Shown in pieces: positions 4,743-47,873 of a DNA stretch of 64,000 bases (positions are counted from its first letter, which is position 1; each line of letters begins with the position of its first letter). Source of the stretch: an uncultured bacterium (GTDB lineage Bacteria > Cyanobacteriota > Vampirovibrionia > Gastranaerophilales > Gastranaerophilaceae); assembly GCA_950022695.1 (NCBI GenBank), contig CATLLN010000002.1, forward strand, positions 124,001 through 188,000, given 5' to 3'. Under the pieces are notes generated by a model, which saw nothing but the letters and a program-made list of their open reading frames with translations, did not search any database and was not told where the DNA came from. A program made the position numbers and the translations under genes.

Positions 4743-6557
4743 TTATTTTATTTCAAAGTTAAAAAGCTTCTTACCAAAATACTCCTGAGAAAATTCATTC
4801 GCAAAATTTATAAGATTTGGCGAAAAATCACTTTCCGGTATTATAAAAGTATAAATTTTATCAGAGTTGTTAAGATGCTCAAAATATTCTTTATCACTTA
4901 TGGAAAGCATTTTATTATCATTTTTCAAAACTAAATATTTTAAGATTTTATGATAAATTAATTTTTCTGACCAGGTATAGAACGGAATTTTATCAGTAGG
5001 TTCACCTTTGATAAGTTTAAAATATTTTATTAGCTCAATTTTTCGCTCAACGTTTTTAGGATTTCTCGAAATCCTTAAAGGTTCTTTCATTATCAATTGC
5101 ACAGCTTCTTCTTTACTAATAGCCATCTGCCTTGCATACTCCTCGACTTTTTGTAGAATATTTTCTGGCTTAAGTATTAGAAAAGCAACTTCCTTTGAGC
5201 TCAATTTAACAAATTCTTCCTTAGATATTCCTAATAATCTTGCAGATGATTCAACCCTTTTATTAATCGTTTCAGGCAATGCATATAGAAGCTGTGGTTG
5301 TCTAATTGCTATTTTTAAATATTCTTTTTTTGATAACCCGAAAAGTATTGCACAAGTCTCAGCTTTTTGGTTAAGAGTTTGAGGAGATTGATAAAATAAC
5401 GGTGGTTGTACCAGTGCTGCTTTAATAAATGTTTTTCTTTCAATTCCCAGTAAAGAAGCTGATAAATCAACATTTTTAGCAAGGGTTTCCGGTTTTTGGT
5501 ATAAAATTTGAGGATGTTTTAAACCGGTTTTTATAATTTTTTCTCTTGGTATTTCCAACAACTGTGATAAATTTTCAATATTTGTATTTATTTTTTCTGG
5601 AGTATAACAGAATAAAACAGGTTTCATCATTGCAGACTGCAAATATTGTTCCTTTTTAACTCCAAGCAACTGTGCAGTTTTTGATACATTTGCACTAATA
5701 CTTTCCGGTTTTCTGCCAAATAACTGAACCTGCTCAATATATAAAGTGGCAAGTTTTTCTTTTGGAACATTTAATAATTCTGCTGTTCTATTAATTCTTT
5801 CAATAAATACTGAAGTATCTTGTTCTACTAAATAAGGTAATTTTATTATTTTTTTTGTAATCTCACGGGTACTTTGTCTTAAATTATAAGTATACTTTAA
5901 TTCAGCTGCAAATTCATCAAAACTTGAAGGAAGGATATCATTATCATATTGAATTTGAGCAACTGTTGAAACTATTTTTTTCCTGATTCCTGCGCAAGAT
6001 TCTCCCTGACGTTTTGCGATACTAGTGTAACTTTCTCCTGTAGCTTTTTGTTCCAAGAGTTCTTGCCGATCTGCTGAAATTTGAGATTTAGATTTTATTC
6101 TTTTATCCAGTTCTGAGCTTATTACAGCTCTTTCCTCTTCCGATTTTTGGCTTGCATAGGTTTTAACTCGGTCTTCCGAAAAAAAATTTTCCATATTATG
6201 AAAAGAAACCTCTCGTCTGTTAAATTCAGGTTTTAAATCGTCTTCATCCGGACAAATTGAATTTAAGTATGAAATAAGGGATAATGCCGTAATATTTTCC
6301 TGTGTAATTTGCTCCAATTTTTCAAATAATGCAAGATACAGATTTTGTAAAAAATCCTCAGTATAATGAAATAATCTTACTTTTTTACTGGCTTCTTTTT
6401 GCAAGTGTTTATCAAGAATTACAAAAATGTCAGATTTACTTTTTTCATTATTATCAAGTTTTAATGATTGCAATAGCTCATCAGTCTTTTGTTTTTCTTT
6501 ATCTGACAGTTTGATAGCTCTAAAGGGAATAGGTATATGTTGTTCTGTAATTCTCAT
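4743..6557 (-). CDS. Sigma-70-like domain fused to eight mTERF-like 36-residue repeats
   Basis: 604 residues. The N-terminal 205 residues have two sigma-like segments: a helix like region 2 (TEDFLQNLYLALFEKLEQ, about 66-83) and a helix-turn-helix like region 4 (GESYTSIAKRQGESCAGIRKKI, about 174-195). From about 240 to 515 there are eight units of 36 residues with the pattern 'P-x-LL-x(3)-PE-x-I-x(3)-V-x(4)-LLGI-x-KE'. Starts are near 240, 277, 313, 349, 385, 421, 457 and 493. This is the signature of mTERF (mitochondrial transcription termination factor) helical repeats, which form a nucleic-acid-binding solenoid. Residues 516-604 form an unassigned tail. The gene stands alone. A role in transcription is inferred; no homologue was searched. 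Confidence 0.7.
   Translation of the reverse strand: MRITEQHIPIPFRAIKLSDKEKQKTDELLQSLKLDNNEKSKSDIFVILDKHLQKEASKKVRLFHYTEDFLQNLYLALFEKLEQITQENITALSLISYLNSICPDEDDLKPEFNRREVSFHNMENFFSEDRVKTYASQKSEEERAVISSELDKRIKSKSQISADRQELLEQKATGESYTSIAKRQGESCAGIRKKIVSTVAQIQYDNDILPSSFDEFAAELKYTYNLRQSTREITKKIIKLPYLVEQDTSVFIERINRTAELLNVPKEKLATLYIEQVQLFGRKPESISANVSKTAQLLGVKKEQYLQSAMMKPVLFCYTPEKINTNIENLSQLLEIPREKIIKTGLKHPQILYQKPETLAKNVDLSASLLGIERKTFIKAALVQPPLFYQSPQTLNQKAETCAILFGLSKKEYLKIAIRQPQLLYALPETINKRVESSARLLGISKEEFVKLSSKEVAFLILKPENILQKVEEYARQMAISKEEAVQLIMKEPLRISRNPKNVERKIELIKYFKLIKGEPTDKIPFYTWSEKLIYHKILKYLVLKNDNKMLSISDKEYFEHLNNSDKIYTFIIPESDFSPNLINFANEFSQEYFGKKLFNFEIK
5010..5840 (-). repeat. Array of eight 108-bp coding repeats (mTERF-like)
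   Basis: The coding units each span 36 codons with fixed spacing of P, LL, PE and LLGI positions. The copies have diverged at DNA level, so this is an old protein repeat rather than a recent tandem duplication. The first unit is one residue longer and the last is cut at about 23 residues. Confidence 0.65.
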
Positions 6558-6672: not shown

Positions 6673-7545
6673 ATGTTTAAGTATTATGGAAAAACTGCAC
6701 CGTATTTATTTTTATTACCGGCAGGAATTGTACTATTAATTTTCTTTTTTATACCGTTTTTCCAAACAATATTTTTAAGTTTTCAGAATTATTCAACAAA
6801 TATTTATCACTCAAACTTCAGCGGTCTGCAAAATTATATAGAAATTATCCATAACCCTATTTTTTATAAAGTTATGTGGAATACTTTGTTATACTTGATT
6901 CTTGCGGTGCCAGTACTTGTAATTTTTCCGTTATTTTTGGCTGTATTAATTAACCAGAAAATCAAAGGAATAACTCTTTATAAAATTCTTATTTATCTGC
7001 CTGTAATTGTTTCCATTGTTGTTGCGGCAATTGCATTTAAATGGTTATACGCGGAACAGGGAATTTTAAATTACATATTAAATGTTTTTCACATTAAATC
7101 TATAGGCTGGCTTACAGACCCTAAATATGCAATTTATTCGGTAATTCTGGTAACTATCTGGAAAGGTATCGGATATTATATGATGATTTATCTTGCGGCA
7201 TTAATGAGCGTTCCTAAAGAATTATACGAAGCTTGTGATATAGATGGTGCAGGATTTTTCAGAAAACATTTAACTGTTACAATCCCGCATATTATGCCTA
7301 CTATCGCGCTTGTCACAACAATTAGTTCTATTTCTGCAATGAAAATATTTGCTGAAATTTATGTTATGACAAAAGGTGGTCCGTTAAATTCTACTAAAAC
7401 TATTGTTTATTATATTTATGAAAAAGCATTTGAAAATCTCGATCTTGGCTACGCTTCTGCGATGGCAGTCATTTTGTTGGTAATAGTTATGGTATTTTCA
7501 TTAGTAAATATATTATGTTTTGAAAGGAATAAGTATCAGCTATGA
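6673..7545 (+). CDS. Sugar ABC transporter permease, MalF/UgpA type
   Basis: 290-residue inner-membrane protein with six predicted membrane segments, beginning with the hydrophobic LFLLPAGIVLLIFFF. Near residues 182-205 it has the cytoplasmic EAA loop (EACDIDGAGFFRKHLTVTIP) that contacts the transporter's ATPase. This is the first of two permease subunits typical of carbohydrate importers (CUT1 family). It overlaps the next gene by four bases (ATGA), so the two are translationally coupled. No binding protein or ATPase gene lies in the window, so both must be encoded elsewhere; the substrate cannot be told. Confidence 0.9.
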   Translation: MFKYYGKTAPYLFLLPAGIVLLIFFFIPFFQTIFLSFQNYSTNIYHSNFSGLQNYIEIIHNPIFYKVMWNTLLYLILAVPVLVIFPLFLAVLINQKIKGITLYKILIYLPVIVSIVVAAIAFKWLYAEQGILNYILNVFHIKSIGWLTDPKYAIYSVILVTIWKGIGYYMMIYLAALMSVPKELYEACDIDGAGFFRKHLTVTIPHIMPTIALVTTISSISAMKIFAEIYVMTKGGPLNSTKTIVYYIYEKAFENLDLGYASAMAVILLVIVMVFSLVNILCFERNKYQL

Positions 7546-8395: not shown

Positions 8396-9745
8396 TTATG
8401 CCGTTTTTAATTTTGAAGTATTTAATTTAATTTTATGATTTGATAAAGTATATATTGTATCTGCAAAATCTGTAATATATTTAGGGCTAATATTATGACG
8501 TGCAAAAATCCCCTGATGATAAAGTTCTATCAGTCTGTTTACATACCACTGACAATACATTGGAGTGTTCGGACGCAGTTTTAATTGCTGCCTGAATTCA
8601 ATACTTTTCCTATCTGAATTTTCACGGGTTGTCGCACCTGCAAAATTTGCCATCATATCTGCCCCGCCGCACGAACGAGGTAACAAATGTTCAACGGATG
8701 CTAATGACGGCCAAACTATTCTGTGACCAATTTTTTCAGGCTGTTCATGAGCAATTTTCAATACATACGCTGAAAAACTTTCCTGAGATGTCGGAAGTTT
8801 TTGAGCAATTGTGAACATTTTATCATACAATTTCTTATTTGGTAAATCATCTAAAATCTTCAATAAGTCATATAAAAAAGTCTTTCTTGTAAAAGGTACA
8901 ATAATTTCTTCACGGTTTAATCTGGATTTTGATGTTTCTATTAAACTTTTAAGCTGATTGTTATTTTTCAAAACAGACTTTTTCAAAATATGTTCAATAA
9001 ACCCCAGAACTTGTTTTTGTCTTTCAATAGTGCTTGCACTTGTTGTATTAGAAAAACGCTTAGTTTCTTTCATAATTTTATTCATAACTTTTTTGGACTT
9101 TAAATCAGATCCTTTGGCGATATCTTCTCTTATTTTTGCAAGTTTATACTTAAATTCATAAGATGAAAAAGGAATTACAATAGGTTTTTCATCTAACTTT
9201 TTTTCCGTATCTTCCATAAGCAGCTTAAACTTATGCCTATATTCAGGCGGCAAATCGTAAGATGCTTCTGTTAATTCATGAAATATAGGTGTTTGTTTTT
9301 TGCGCAAACGCCTTGTATACACAGGTTTTACTTCCTGCAGAATTTCTCTTATATTCATTTTAGGATGAATTTTTGCGCGCTCTGTTATCAATTCTAAAAC
9401 CTTTGCTTCCATCCCTACAAAGCTGTCTTTATAAGGTTCTAAAGCATTAATAACTTCCAGAGCAGAACGTTTAAAAAGTCCATTTTTCAACCAGCGGCTT
9501 AGAACTTTCGGGTCAATCATCGGAACTCCGCAATATATACAAGGGAGTCGGTAAGCAAATAATATTCTTAATTTCGAGGAATTTTGAATTCCTGTAAATG
9601 ATATTGGATAATAACAAGGCATGCAACTTAAAGAGTTGCCGGCAGAATACAAATTATCCGAATAACAATCTTTCCAATCACTGCTTGATTGGATTTCCTG
9701 CCGGTATAAATTGTATTTTGCAAATGATACTGGTTGAATTTTCAT
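8396..9745 (-). CDS. HNH-nuclease-like protein with an N-terminal lineage tag
   Basis: 449 residues. The N-terminus (MKIQPVSFAKYNLYR ... YYPISFTG) carries the tag motif seen on several unrelated proteins here. A zinc-knuckle-like CIYCG follows at about residue 72. Near residue 358 is EHLLPRSCGGADMMANF, the beta-beta-alpha metal core of HNH endonucleases (His of 'EHxxP', Asn of 'N'), with a further NSDR. Between them lie about 280 residues of charged helix. In ordinary HNH proteins the CxxC and the HNH core are close, so this arrangement is unusual. The substrate is unknown; there is no signal peptide. Nuclease activity is inferred from the core motif only. Confidence 0.55.
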   Translation of the reverse strand: MKIQPVSFAKYNLYRQEIQSSSDWKDCYSDNLYSAGNSLSCMPCYYPISFTGIQNSSKLRILFAYRLPCIYCGVPMIDPKVLSRWLKNGLFKRSALEVINALEPYKDSFVGMEAKVLELITERAKIHPKMNIREILQEVKPVYTRRLRKKQTPIFHELTEASYDLPPEYRHKFKLLMEDTEKKLDEKPIVIPFSSYEFKYKLAKIREDIAKGSDLKSKKVMNKIMKETKRFSNTTSASTIERQKQVLGFIEHILKKSVLKNNNQLKSLIETSKSRLNREEIIVPFTRKTFLYDLLKILDDLPNKKLYDKMFTIAQKLPTSQESFSAYVLKIAHEQPEKIGHRIVWPSLASVEHLLPRSCGGADMMANFAGATTRENSDRKSIEFRQQLKLRPNTPMYCQWYVNRLIELYHQGIFARHNISPKYITDFADTIYTLSNHKIKLNTSKLKTA

Positions 9746-9793
9746 ATAAACCCTATTAATATTTTAACTCATTTTTGAAAAATATTAAAGTGC

Positions 9794-10933
9794 TTATTCT
9801 TCTGTAATATCTGATGCAAAATGAGACAATGACGGACATTTACCGAAATTATCTAGCATAGCTTTATCGAGTTCTTCTGTCGCAACAATTTTACCGTTTA
9901 CAAAATTTATGCCTGAAGATGTAATTGTTTCACCAAATTCATCTTTTTTATTTTCTTTTGCTTTAATGTCTTTATCATTTTTGGCCATATGATGCGCAAG
10001 TTTACGTTTTTCTTCCTCAAGAATCACTTTTAGATACTGTTTATATTCTTCATTACGATAAACATTTCTTGTAATATCATTTAAAACAGTTGCGACATAC
10101 TGTTGAATGTATGAATTTCCATCAAGTGCAGTAATCAAAGTTGTAGCTTTATCTATTTCATCATAAGCTTCTTTAAATAATCTGCGTTTTCTAAGCAGTA
10201 ATGCAAGATTATAATGAGCTTCGTAATTCATCGGAGCAAGCCCGATTGCTTTACAATAACAGATTCCAGCCCTATCATAATCACCAATTGTATGATATGC
10301 AACCCCTAAATTATATTGTGAATCATAACTGTCAGGATAAATTGCAACAGATTTTTCATAAGCTTCAATGGCTTTTGATAAGTACTTTCTGCGAGCTTCC
10401 CAATCACTGTTTGAATAAAGCGATTTTAAACGATAAGTTACACCAATATTATAATAAGCAATGGCTTTATTTTCTTTATAGCTGACTTTGTTGCTATATA
10501 CATATGGAATCGAAATTAATTTACGTTTTGTTTTAATAACTTCGTTATACTGTTTTAAAGCAGAATCAAAATCTCCAAGCATTTCAGATGCTACAATACC
10601 ATAATTCATTCTTGCAATCATCATTCTGGGATTGTGTTTGAACGCATTTGAATATGCATACAAAGCTGAATGATAATCTTCATAAGCTACATAAATATTT
10701 CCTAGATTGTACCACGCTCCATAATGCTGCGGATAAAGATTTAACCCCTTGTTATAAAACCTGATAGCATCTTGCATTTCCATCTGCTTATAAGCTTTAT
10801 CGCCTTGATAAACATAATACATACCCTTAACTTTATCAGCCTGATGTATTACAAACTGTTGATTGAAATACCCTGCTATCACAATCACTGCAATTACAAA
10901 AATTGAAAATAAAGCTGATAATATTTTTTTCAA
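9794..10933 (-). CDS. Membrane-anchored TPR protein
   Basis: 379 residues. An N-terminal hydrophobic segment (LSALFSIFVIAVIVIAGYF, about 5-23) anchors the protein with the rest probably outside the cytoplasm. From about residue 40 to 275 there are roughly six tetratricopeptide repeats, e.g. AWYNLGNIYVAYEDYHSALYAY, AYYNIGVTYRLKS, SQYNLGVAYHTIGDYDRAGI and AHYNLALLLRKRRLFKEAYD. TPRs mediate protein-protein contacts. The C-terminal 70 residues are lysine- and glutamate-rich. It is followed by a short gap to the tagged HNH-like gene and stands divergent from the glycine-rich protein gene at 11109. The partner is unknown. Confidence 0.85.
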   Translation of the reverse strand: MKKILSALFSIFVIAVIVIAGYFNQQFVIHQADKVKGMYYVYQGDKAYKQMEMQDAIRFYNKGLNLYPQHYGAWYNLGNIYVAYEDYHSALYAYSNAFKHNPRMMIARMNYGIVASEMLGDFDSALKQYNEVIKTKRKLISIPYVYSNKVSYKENKAIAYYNIGVTYRLKSLYSNSDWEARRKYLSKAIEAYEKSVAIYPDSYDSQYNLGVAYHTIGDYDRAGICYCKAIGLAPMNYEAHYNLALLLRKRRLFKEAYDEIDKATTLITALDGNSYIQQYVATVLNDITRNVYRNEEYKQYLKVILEEEKRKLAHHMAKNDKDIKAKENKKDEFGETITSSGINFVNGKIVATEELDKAMLDNFGKCPSLSHFASDITEE

Positions 10934-47017: not shown

Positions 47018-47365
47018 ATGAAAGACAAATGTACCAAATACGAAGCTTTATTTACTTTTAGAAGTGAAGAAGAATTGCAAGAACACATTAAAGAATGTGA
47101 AGATTGCAGACTTGAACACGAAAAAATGCTTAAAGTTTCAGAATTAATTCAGGAAGCTAAACCATATTTTAAAGAAAAACGCAAAAATAGAGCTAAAATT
47201 AAAGCAGCTTGCGCGCTTTTTATGCTTATGATAAGCGGAACTACTCTAGGATTAATAAATTTTAATCCGGATATCTCTGATACTTTGAAATACGGGACAA
47301 CACTAAGTGCAGAAGATTTAGGATTACCTGTAGATTCGTACGGGTTAATTTATATTGAAGATTAA
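47018..47365 (+). CDS. Zinc-finger anti-sigma factor with one membrane span
   Basis: 115 residues. The first part has HIKECEDCRLEHE, the HxxxCxxC zinc anti-sigma pattern. A membrane helix at about 65-85 (ACALFMLMISGTTLGLI) and a short outer segment follow (to LIYIED). Such proteins bind and hold ECF sigma factors until a signal releases them. It is upstream of and 10 bases from the sigma gene, the usual paired arrangement, though often reversed in order. Confidence 0.7.
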   Translation: MKDKCTKYEALFTFRSEEELQEHIKECEDCRLEHEKMLKVSELIQEAKPYFKEKRKNRAKIKAACALFMLMISGTTLGLINFNPDISDTLKYGTTLSAEDLGLPVDSYGLIYIED

Positions 47366-47375
47366 GTAGGAATTA

Positions 47376-47873
47376 ATGGATTTTAACAAGGTAGTAGAAG
47401 CAAATAAACAAAATATCAAAAACATAATACGGCTTATAACAAGAGAAGAAAATGAAGACTTGGAACAAGAAGTATTCGTTAAAATCTGGAAAAATTCTGA
47501 AAAATACCAGGAAAAAGGCTCTATTAAAAGCTGGATCTCAACAATAGCAAAAAACACATCTCTAGACTACTTAAGATCTTCATACCACAAAGTTTCGCAA
47601 AACTCCGATTCAGAAGATTATACACTTTCATGTATTAAAGATAAAAAAGTTTCACCTGAAGAAAATATCATTAAACTTGAACGACAAAAAAGAATTACAG
47701 AAGCAATCAATCAATTAAAACCAAAACTTAAAGAAGTAATAATAATGACTGAAATTAATGGATATTCTTACGAAGAATGCGCAAATAAACTCAAATGTCC
47801 GATAGGAACCATAAAATCACGAATCTTTAACGCTAAAAAAGAATTAGCAGAGAAATTACAAGACTTATTATAA
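47376..47873 (+). CDS. ECF RNA polymerase sigma factor
   Basis: 165 residues. Region 2 is EENEDLEQEVFVKIWKNSEKYQEKGSI (two parts around residues 27-50) and region 4 is YSYEECANKLKCPIGTIKSRIFNAKKEL near 130-155. It lacks region 1, as ECF factors do. Directs RNA polymerase to envelope-stress type promoters. It directly precedes the Spy-like gene and follows the anti-sigma, forming a three-gene operon. Confidence 0.92.
   Translation: MDFNKVVEANKQNIKNIIRLITREENEDLEQEVFVKIWKNSEKYQEKGSIKSWISTIAKNTSLDYLRSSYHKVSQNSDSEDYTLSCIKDKKVSPEENIIKLERQKRITEAINQLKPKLKEVIIMTEINGYSYEECANKLKCPIGTIKSRIFNAKKELAEKLQDLL

Follow-up and report, generated by a model that had tools for sequence, protein, structure and literature searches.

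We report here a bacterial protein of 604 aa in which a sigma-70-derived N-terminal half (residues 19-208) is joined in one chain to mTERF repeats (residues 241-517) and to a C-terminal alpha/beta domain. Its gene is located in a 64,000-nucleotide stretch of a Gastranaerophilales genome, hereafter the window, with the following organization.

4743..6557, minus strand: whole gene of the sigma-like/mTERF fusion protein, ATG start, 604 aa
6504..6557, minus strand: disordered N-terminal tail (residues 1-18) with the family motif F-x-A-I-x-L (F12), from a pLDDT of ~30 over residues 1-10 and from conservation
6222..6503, minus strand: sigma region-2-like helical domain (residues 19-112) with D68..Q71, from a fold match, the sequence signal being weak
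6087..6221, minus strand: linker resembling sigma region 3.2 (residues 113-157), from profile alignment and a SigA match in the PDB
5934..6086, minus strand: sigma region-4-like helix-turn-helix (residues 158-208), from Pfam Sigma70_r4 in relatives, profile and fold
5838..5927, minus strand: helix pair connecting region 4 with the solenoid (residues 211-240), from the secondary structure of the model
5007..5837, minus strand: mTERF solenoid (residues 241-517), seven 36-aa units and a partial eighth, from Pfam, PDB profile, fold and unit spacing
4746..5006, minus strand: C-terminal alpha/beta domain (residues 518-604; helix, helix, strand, helix, strand), from an AF2 pLDDT of 90.9

The open reading frame 4743-6557 is a real gene, and relatives sharing 27-34% identity along the entire length, most of them from other genera, keep its frame and architecture. 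Used alone as a query, the window protein gave no match in Pfam by hmmscan or in the PDB by phmmer, and its NCBIfam and PHROGs matches were dismissed as sub-threshold chance matches inside the repeats. When the two parts were searched separately by profile and by fold, as an equivalent of HHpred, residues 18-210 matched sigma factors and residues 206-543 matched mTERF proteins. The original prediction of a sigma-70-like domain fused to mTERF-like repeats would have been refuted by the lack of any sigma match at the N-terminus together with another solenoid family for the repeats, which was not the outcome.

The mTERF identity of the repeats was confirmed at three levels. Pfam mTERF (PF02536) was detected in 19/28 relatives (E up to 1; best 1.1e-21), and two stretches of the window protein itself reached 28.4 and 24.2 bits in the genome search (cut-off 23.1), although single-protein hmmscan did not find PF02536 in it. 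The PDB profile search returned mS93, MTERF1 and MTERF3 at 2e-6 to 8e-5. Finally, the AF2 model (pLDDT 85) displays a superhelical solenoid of short helical repeats, on which MTERF1 superposes with a Z of 16.7 over 301 residues and MTERF3 with a Z of 15.2 (rmsd 4.0 over 247 residues). The units start exactly 36 aa apart at residues 241, 277, 313, 349, 385, 421 and 457, with a partial eighth at 493; the predicted 36-residue spacing is thus correct, and the predicted eight units have to be reduced to 7.5. Across the family, the arrays contain 2 to 16 units, and the units of a second subfamily are 39-40 aa long. Pfam matches to Tox-PL-2, DUF4003 and AID in repetitive relatives were ignored, as they are mostly repeat artefacts without a passing stretch. 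mTERF proteins are mainly known as organelle factors encoded in the nucleus, and mTERF was not detected in 14 control genomes. The solenoid of the window protein is basic (net charge +14, pI 9.6), and acidic solenoids occur in some 39-aa relatives (pI 5.0 at locus L020). Nucleic-acid binding by the solenoid is suggested, as an inference whose support is limited to this basic charge and to a match of positions with MTERF1, discussed below.

Concerning the N-terminal half, a profile of 26 members aligned collinearly by hhalign both with the ECF factors of the lineage (96.3%, E 1.6e-9, residues 63-206) and with its longer sigmas (96.9%, E 1.5e-10, residues 87-204), the real scores being 65-75 against at most 16 for 20 column shuffles and less than 15 for the reversed profile. 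The main carrier of this signal is the linker with region 4, which aligned with primary sigmas at 97.4% over 92 columns. In line with this, the PDB profile search matched SigA regions 3.2-4 (E 0.007), the region 3.2-like S-L-D linker is kept, the linker motif S-L-D...D-I-T-E is seen in relatives, and Pfam Sigma70_r4 was found in 9/28 of them (best 3e-7). A sigma factor cannot be diagnosed from region 4 alone, because the A2 profile also matches region-4-type helix-turn-helix motifs in many unrelated proteins; the linker and region 4 together are diagnostic. The evidence for region 2 is partial and comes mainly from its fold. Residues 23-109 of the model superpose on region 2 of CnrH (VIA-align Z 8.9, rmsd 2.4 over 82 residues), SigW matches the same domain with a Z of 8.7, both below the value of 13 under which the tool advises caution for helical bundles, and sigma factors make up nearly all non-mTERF rows of the VIA fold list. 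By sequence, the profile alignment of region 2 alone to sigmas is weak (13%; score 23.8 for a shuffled maximum of 15.2). Of the predicted pair of a region-2-like helix and a region-4-like helix-turn-helix, region 4 with its linker is therefore well supported, and region 2 is tentative, resting on fold more than on sequence.

Two positions deserve attention in this domain. D68 and Q71, each present in 22/26 members, are among the best-conserved positions of the N-terminal half and align with the D and Q of region 2.2 in the lineage's own ECF factor, residues through which genuine sigma factors bind core RNA polymerase. Conversely, the aromatic and basic residues of regions 2.3/2.4 that read the -10 element are absent from the aligned stretch (SLISYLNSICPDEDDLK), and most of columns 96-102 are variable. 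As for Pfam Sigma70_r2, the window protein is not among the eight matches in its genome, and the family does not appear among those shown for relatives. Because the -10-reading residues are lost and Sigma70_r2 failed, the N-terminal half is best described as sigma-derived and sigma-like, and we do not call it a sigma factor. For the same reasons, the idea of promoter recognition fused to a solenoid nucleic-acid binder is retained for the fusion itself and is doubtful for promoter recognition.

The C-terminal domain (residues 518-604) has no convincing fold match in the PDB (best Z 3.1; no Foldseek match below E 0.07), and in a survey of 146 genomes of the order its matches were almost confined to family members, making it a family-specific domain. 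In the N-terminal tail, F12 is present in 24/26 members and falls in an alignment gap in the remaining two.

Relatives were found in 44/286 sampled Gastranaerophilales genomes, spread over 14/50 genera, and this patchy distribution is also seen within the genus of the window: the closest relative there is 27% identical. The four-part architecture (region-2-like, region-4-like, repeats, C-terminal domain) was present in 26 of the 46 distinct proteins read; the rest include some without the sigma half and some cut by contig ends. The sigma half is missing in five relatives (loci L011, L017, L023, L025 and L028) and is replaced by a mere helix-turn-helix in another (L010; weakly in L013), which makes it optional in the family, the repeats and the C-terminal domain being the usual constants. 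Even the repeats can be exchanged: at L037 (2621-4627 and 4677-6458), tandem helix-turn-helix units replace the mTERF units between the N- and C-terminal domains of the family. Two further arrangements were observed, namely a 1487-aa protein combining the family N-terminal domain with a region containing an HD domain (L038:1463-5923; Pfam HD 1.2e-6, weak Cas3-HD similarity) and, in the window's genus, a stand-alone 138-aa protein consisting of the region-2-like domain only, with no repeat remnants adjoining (L150:1501-1917).

Named relatives are mostly Gastranaerophilales. No full-architecture relative was found outside the order; the relatives met there are all repeat proteins lacking both the sigma part and the C-terminal part, of which a Prochloron didemni assembly contains two (L044) and a betaproteobacterial MAG one (L043). 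This fits the suggestion of a dedicated regulator of this lineage, the regulatory role itself being inferred. The two Prochloron proteins are adjacent (L044:6277-8658 and 8911-10824) and carry 16 and about 12 near-identical 39-aa mTERF-like units, arrays that are useful for repeat-code analysis. No relative was found in IMG/VR or in phage and plasmid collections, and PADLOC did not match the window protein; an origin from a phage, a plasmid or a known defence system is thus unsupported.

The gene is single-copy in its genome and solitary: an unrelated 162-aa ORF lies 230 bases after it, and a transporter gene pair starting at 6673 is divergent from it. Elsewhere in the family, tandem trios (L040, L041) and a four-gene cluster (L037) were seen. 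No recurring neighbour gene among the identified loci points to a pathway. Several features of the surroundings were recorded besides. An apparent mobile/defence island (L175; G000:C2:112001-128000) lies to the left of the window and overlaps its start; it contains a tyrosine integrase, a type III restriction enzyme, an SNF2-type helicase extending into window position 1 and a DNA methylase whose gene is divided into two ORFs. It terminates near the sigma-like/mTERF gene, whose membership in the island is unclear. At 8396-9745 on the minus strand, a 449-aa protein without Pfam match contains an IYCG motif and, in its C-terminal part, a stretch (VEHLLPRSCGG) resembling HNH nucleases. Further away, a genuine ECF sigma factor gene (47376-47873) directly follows a 115-aa ORF (47018-47365) with a cysteine-rich, anti-sigma-like start.

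The variation among repeat units gives a hint on how the solenoid could read its target. Taking the proline of Q-P-x-L-F-x as position 0, nonsynonymous and synonymous differences were compared between units within one array. The overall pN/pS of 0.37-0.39 indicates purifying selection on the repeats. Variation in the 39-aa arrays is highest at positions +4, +1 and -1 (pN 0.38, 0.38 and 0.34; next 0.23), and in the 36-aa arrays +1 ranks first and +4 fourth. On the same frame, with the numbering of human MTERF1 fixed via its Y288A entry, R202 and F243 both occupy position +1, and F322, R162 and R169 occupy +4, -2 and +5, respectively. DNA-bound MTERF1 entries carry the substitutions R162A, F243A, F322A and Y288A, at residues that contact or flip bases. 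These observations suggest that positions -1, +1 and +4 form a sequence-reading face; the match with MTERF1 is not a proof, and hypervariability is only suggestive because surface positions vary anyway.

Altogether, the reading that we favour, tentatively and at somewhat short of an even chance, is that of a sigma-derived, RNA-polymerase-associated transcription regulator with a DNA address set by the mTERF solenoid. Its function is inferred, in the absence of expression, binding or genetic data. The region-2-like domain with its D..Q motif and the region 3.2/4-like part would dock on core RNA polymerase. With the -10-reading residues gone, the choice of target would fall to the solenoid, which may wrap about one to two dozen base pairs, with positions -1, +1 and +4 of every unit doing the reading. 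Polymerase held at the target would then change the transcription of a few loci. The binding site of MTERF1 is 22 bp long, and MTERF1 acts as a polar block to polymerase (PMC7939475); the predicted outcome could be either activation, or pausing/termination as with MTERF1. Against this reading stand the weak sequence signal of region 2, its Z value in the range where the tool advises caution for helical bundles, the lack of Sigma70_r2, the acidic solenoids of some relatives and the absence of a conserved neighbour. Contact with polymerase can also not be essential to the whole family, since some relatives lack the sigma half or have a helix-turn-helix only.

The latter relatives are part of the case for the main rival, which we judge somewhat unlikely: a sequence-specific DNA-binding roadblock or repressor, whose helix-turn-helix and solenoid would only bind DNA and block transcription or replication forks like MTERF1, the region 2 remnant having no polymerase role. 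The loss of the -10-reading residues speaks for such a protein, and the helix-turn-helix arrays at L037 make the DNA-binding modules look interchangeable. However, conservation of the D..Q motif and of the region 3.2-like linker would not be needed for DNA binding alone. The solenoid could instead bind RNA, as in plant or mitoribosomal mTERF proteins acting in splicing or rRNA maturation, in which case the sigma-like part would provide an additional contact to nucleic acid or polymerase. Among the mTERF relatives matched, several indeed come from mitoribosomes (mS93, MTERF4-NSUN4), but an accessory gene present in 44/286 genomes is unlike a ribosomal or core RNA role, and we find this very unlikely. 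Hardly probable at all is a protein-binding solenoid serving as an adaptor or as an exported effector sorted by the short N-terminal F-x-A motif. In its favour are the acidic solenoids of some relatives, the conserved tail motif, and genes that vary rapidly, are patchy and are tandemly duplicated, as is typical of effectors, whereas the basic solenoid of the window protein and the variable positions at the MTERF1 DNA-contact places favour nucleic acid. Moreover, other proteins encoded in family loci do not carry the F-x-A motif at their N-termini more often than the background (7/159; background 7-9), leaving a lineage-wide export signal unsupported.

Compared with known systems, the fusion protein shares with the mTERF family (PF02536; human MTERF1, MTERF3) the left-handed helical solenoid of roughly 36-aa units, the P-x-L-F turn and variable positions that coincide with, or adjoin, the places where MTERF1 contacts DNA. 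It differs in being bacterial, in having several relatives with near-identical and exactly spaced units, and in the attachment of its solenoid to a sigma-derived half as well as to a C-terminal domain that has no PDB match. Known C-terminal extensions of sigma factors include SnoaL-like and TPR domains (PMC8999054). Like ECF41 (SnoaL-like) and ECF42 (TPR), the fusion protein combines region-2-like and region-4-like parts, without region 3, with a C-terminal extension; unlike them, its extension is an mTERF solenoid and not a sensory or protein-interaction domain, and its region 2 is too diverged for Pfam. It thus does not meet the description of an ECF factor with regulatory extension, i.e. 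a recognisable ECF region 2 and a SnoaL/TPR-type extension. The RNA-guided transcription complex of PDB 9n9q, whose chain C matches the model by fold (Z 7.5), offers an inferred and purely functional parallel, in that its sigma chain works with a distinct module for DNA addressing; its address is provided by RNA, whereas in the fusion it would come from protein repeats of the same chain. Bacterial TALE-like repeat proteins likewise have tandem near-identical units with a few hypervariable positions, but the repeat family is different here and has no established code. In literature searches, which were not exhaustive, we found no description of a sigma/mTERF fusion; the parts are known, and their combination appears to be undescribed, as do the bacterial mTERF family and the C-terminal domain.

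To conclude, a fusion between a sigma module and mTERF repeats would couple the recruitment of polymerase to a DNA binder made of modular repeats, and the arrays of near-identical units are a natural data set on how mTERF repeats read sequence. A more far-reaching interpretation, rather unlikely in our opinion, is a whole class of protein-addressed sigma-like factors, in which a degenerate sigma module recruits RNA polymerase and an mTERF array picks the DNA site through a repeat code at positions -1, +1 and +4. If true, this class would be the protein counterpart of RNA-guided sigma systems and would represent a novel type of modular bacterial DNA reader that might be programmable.
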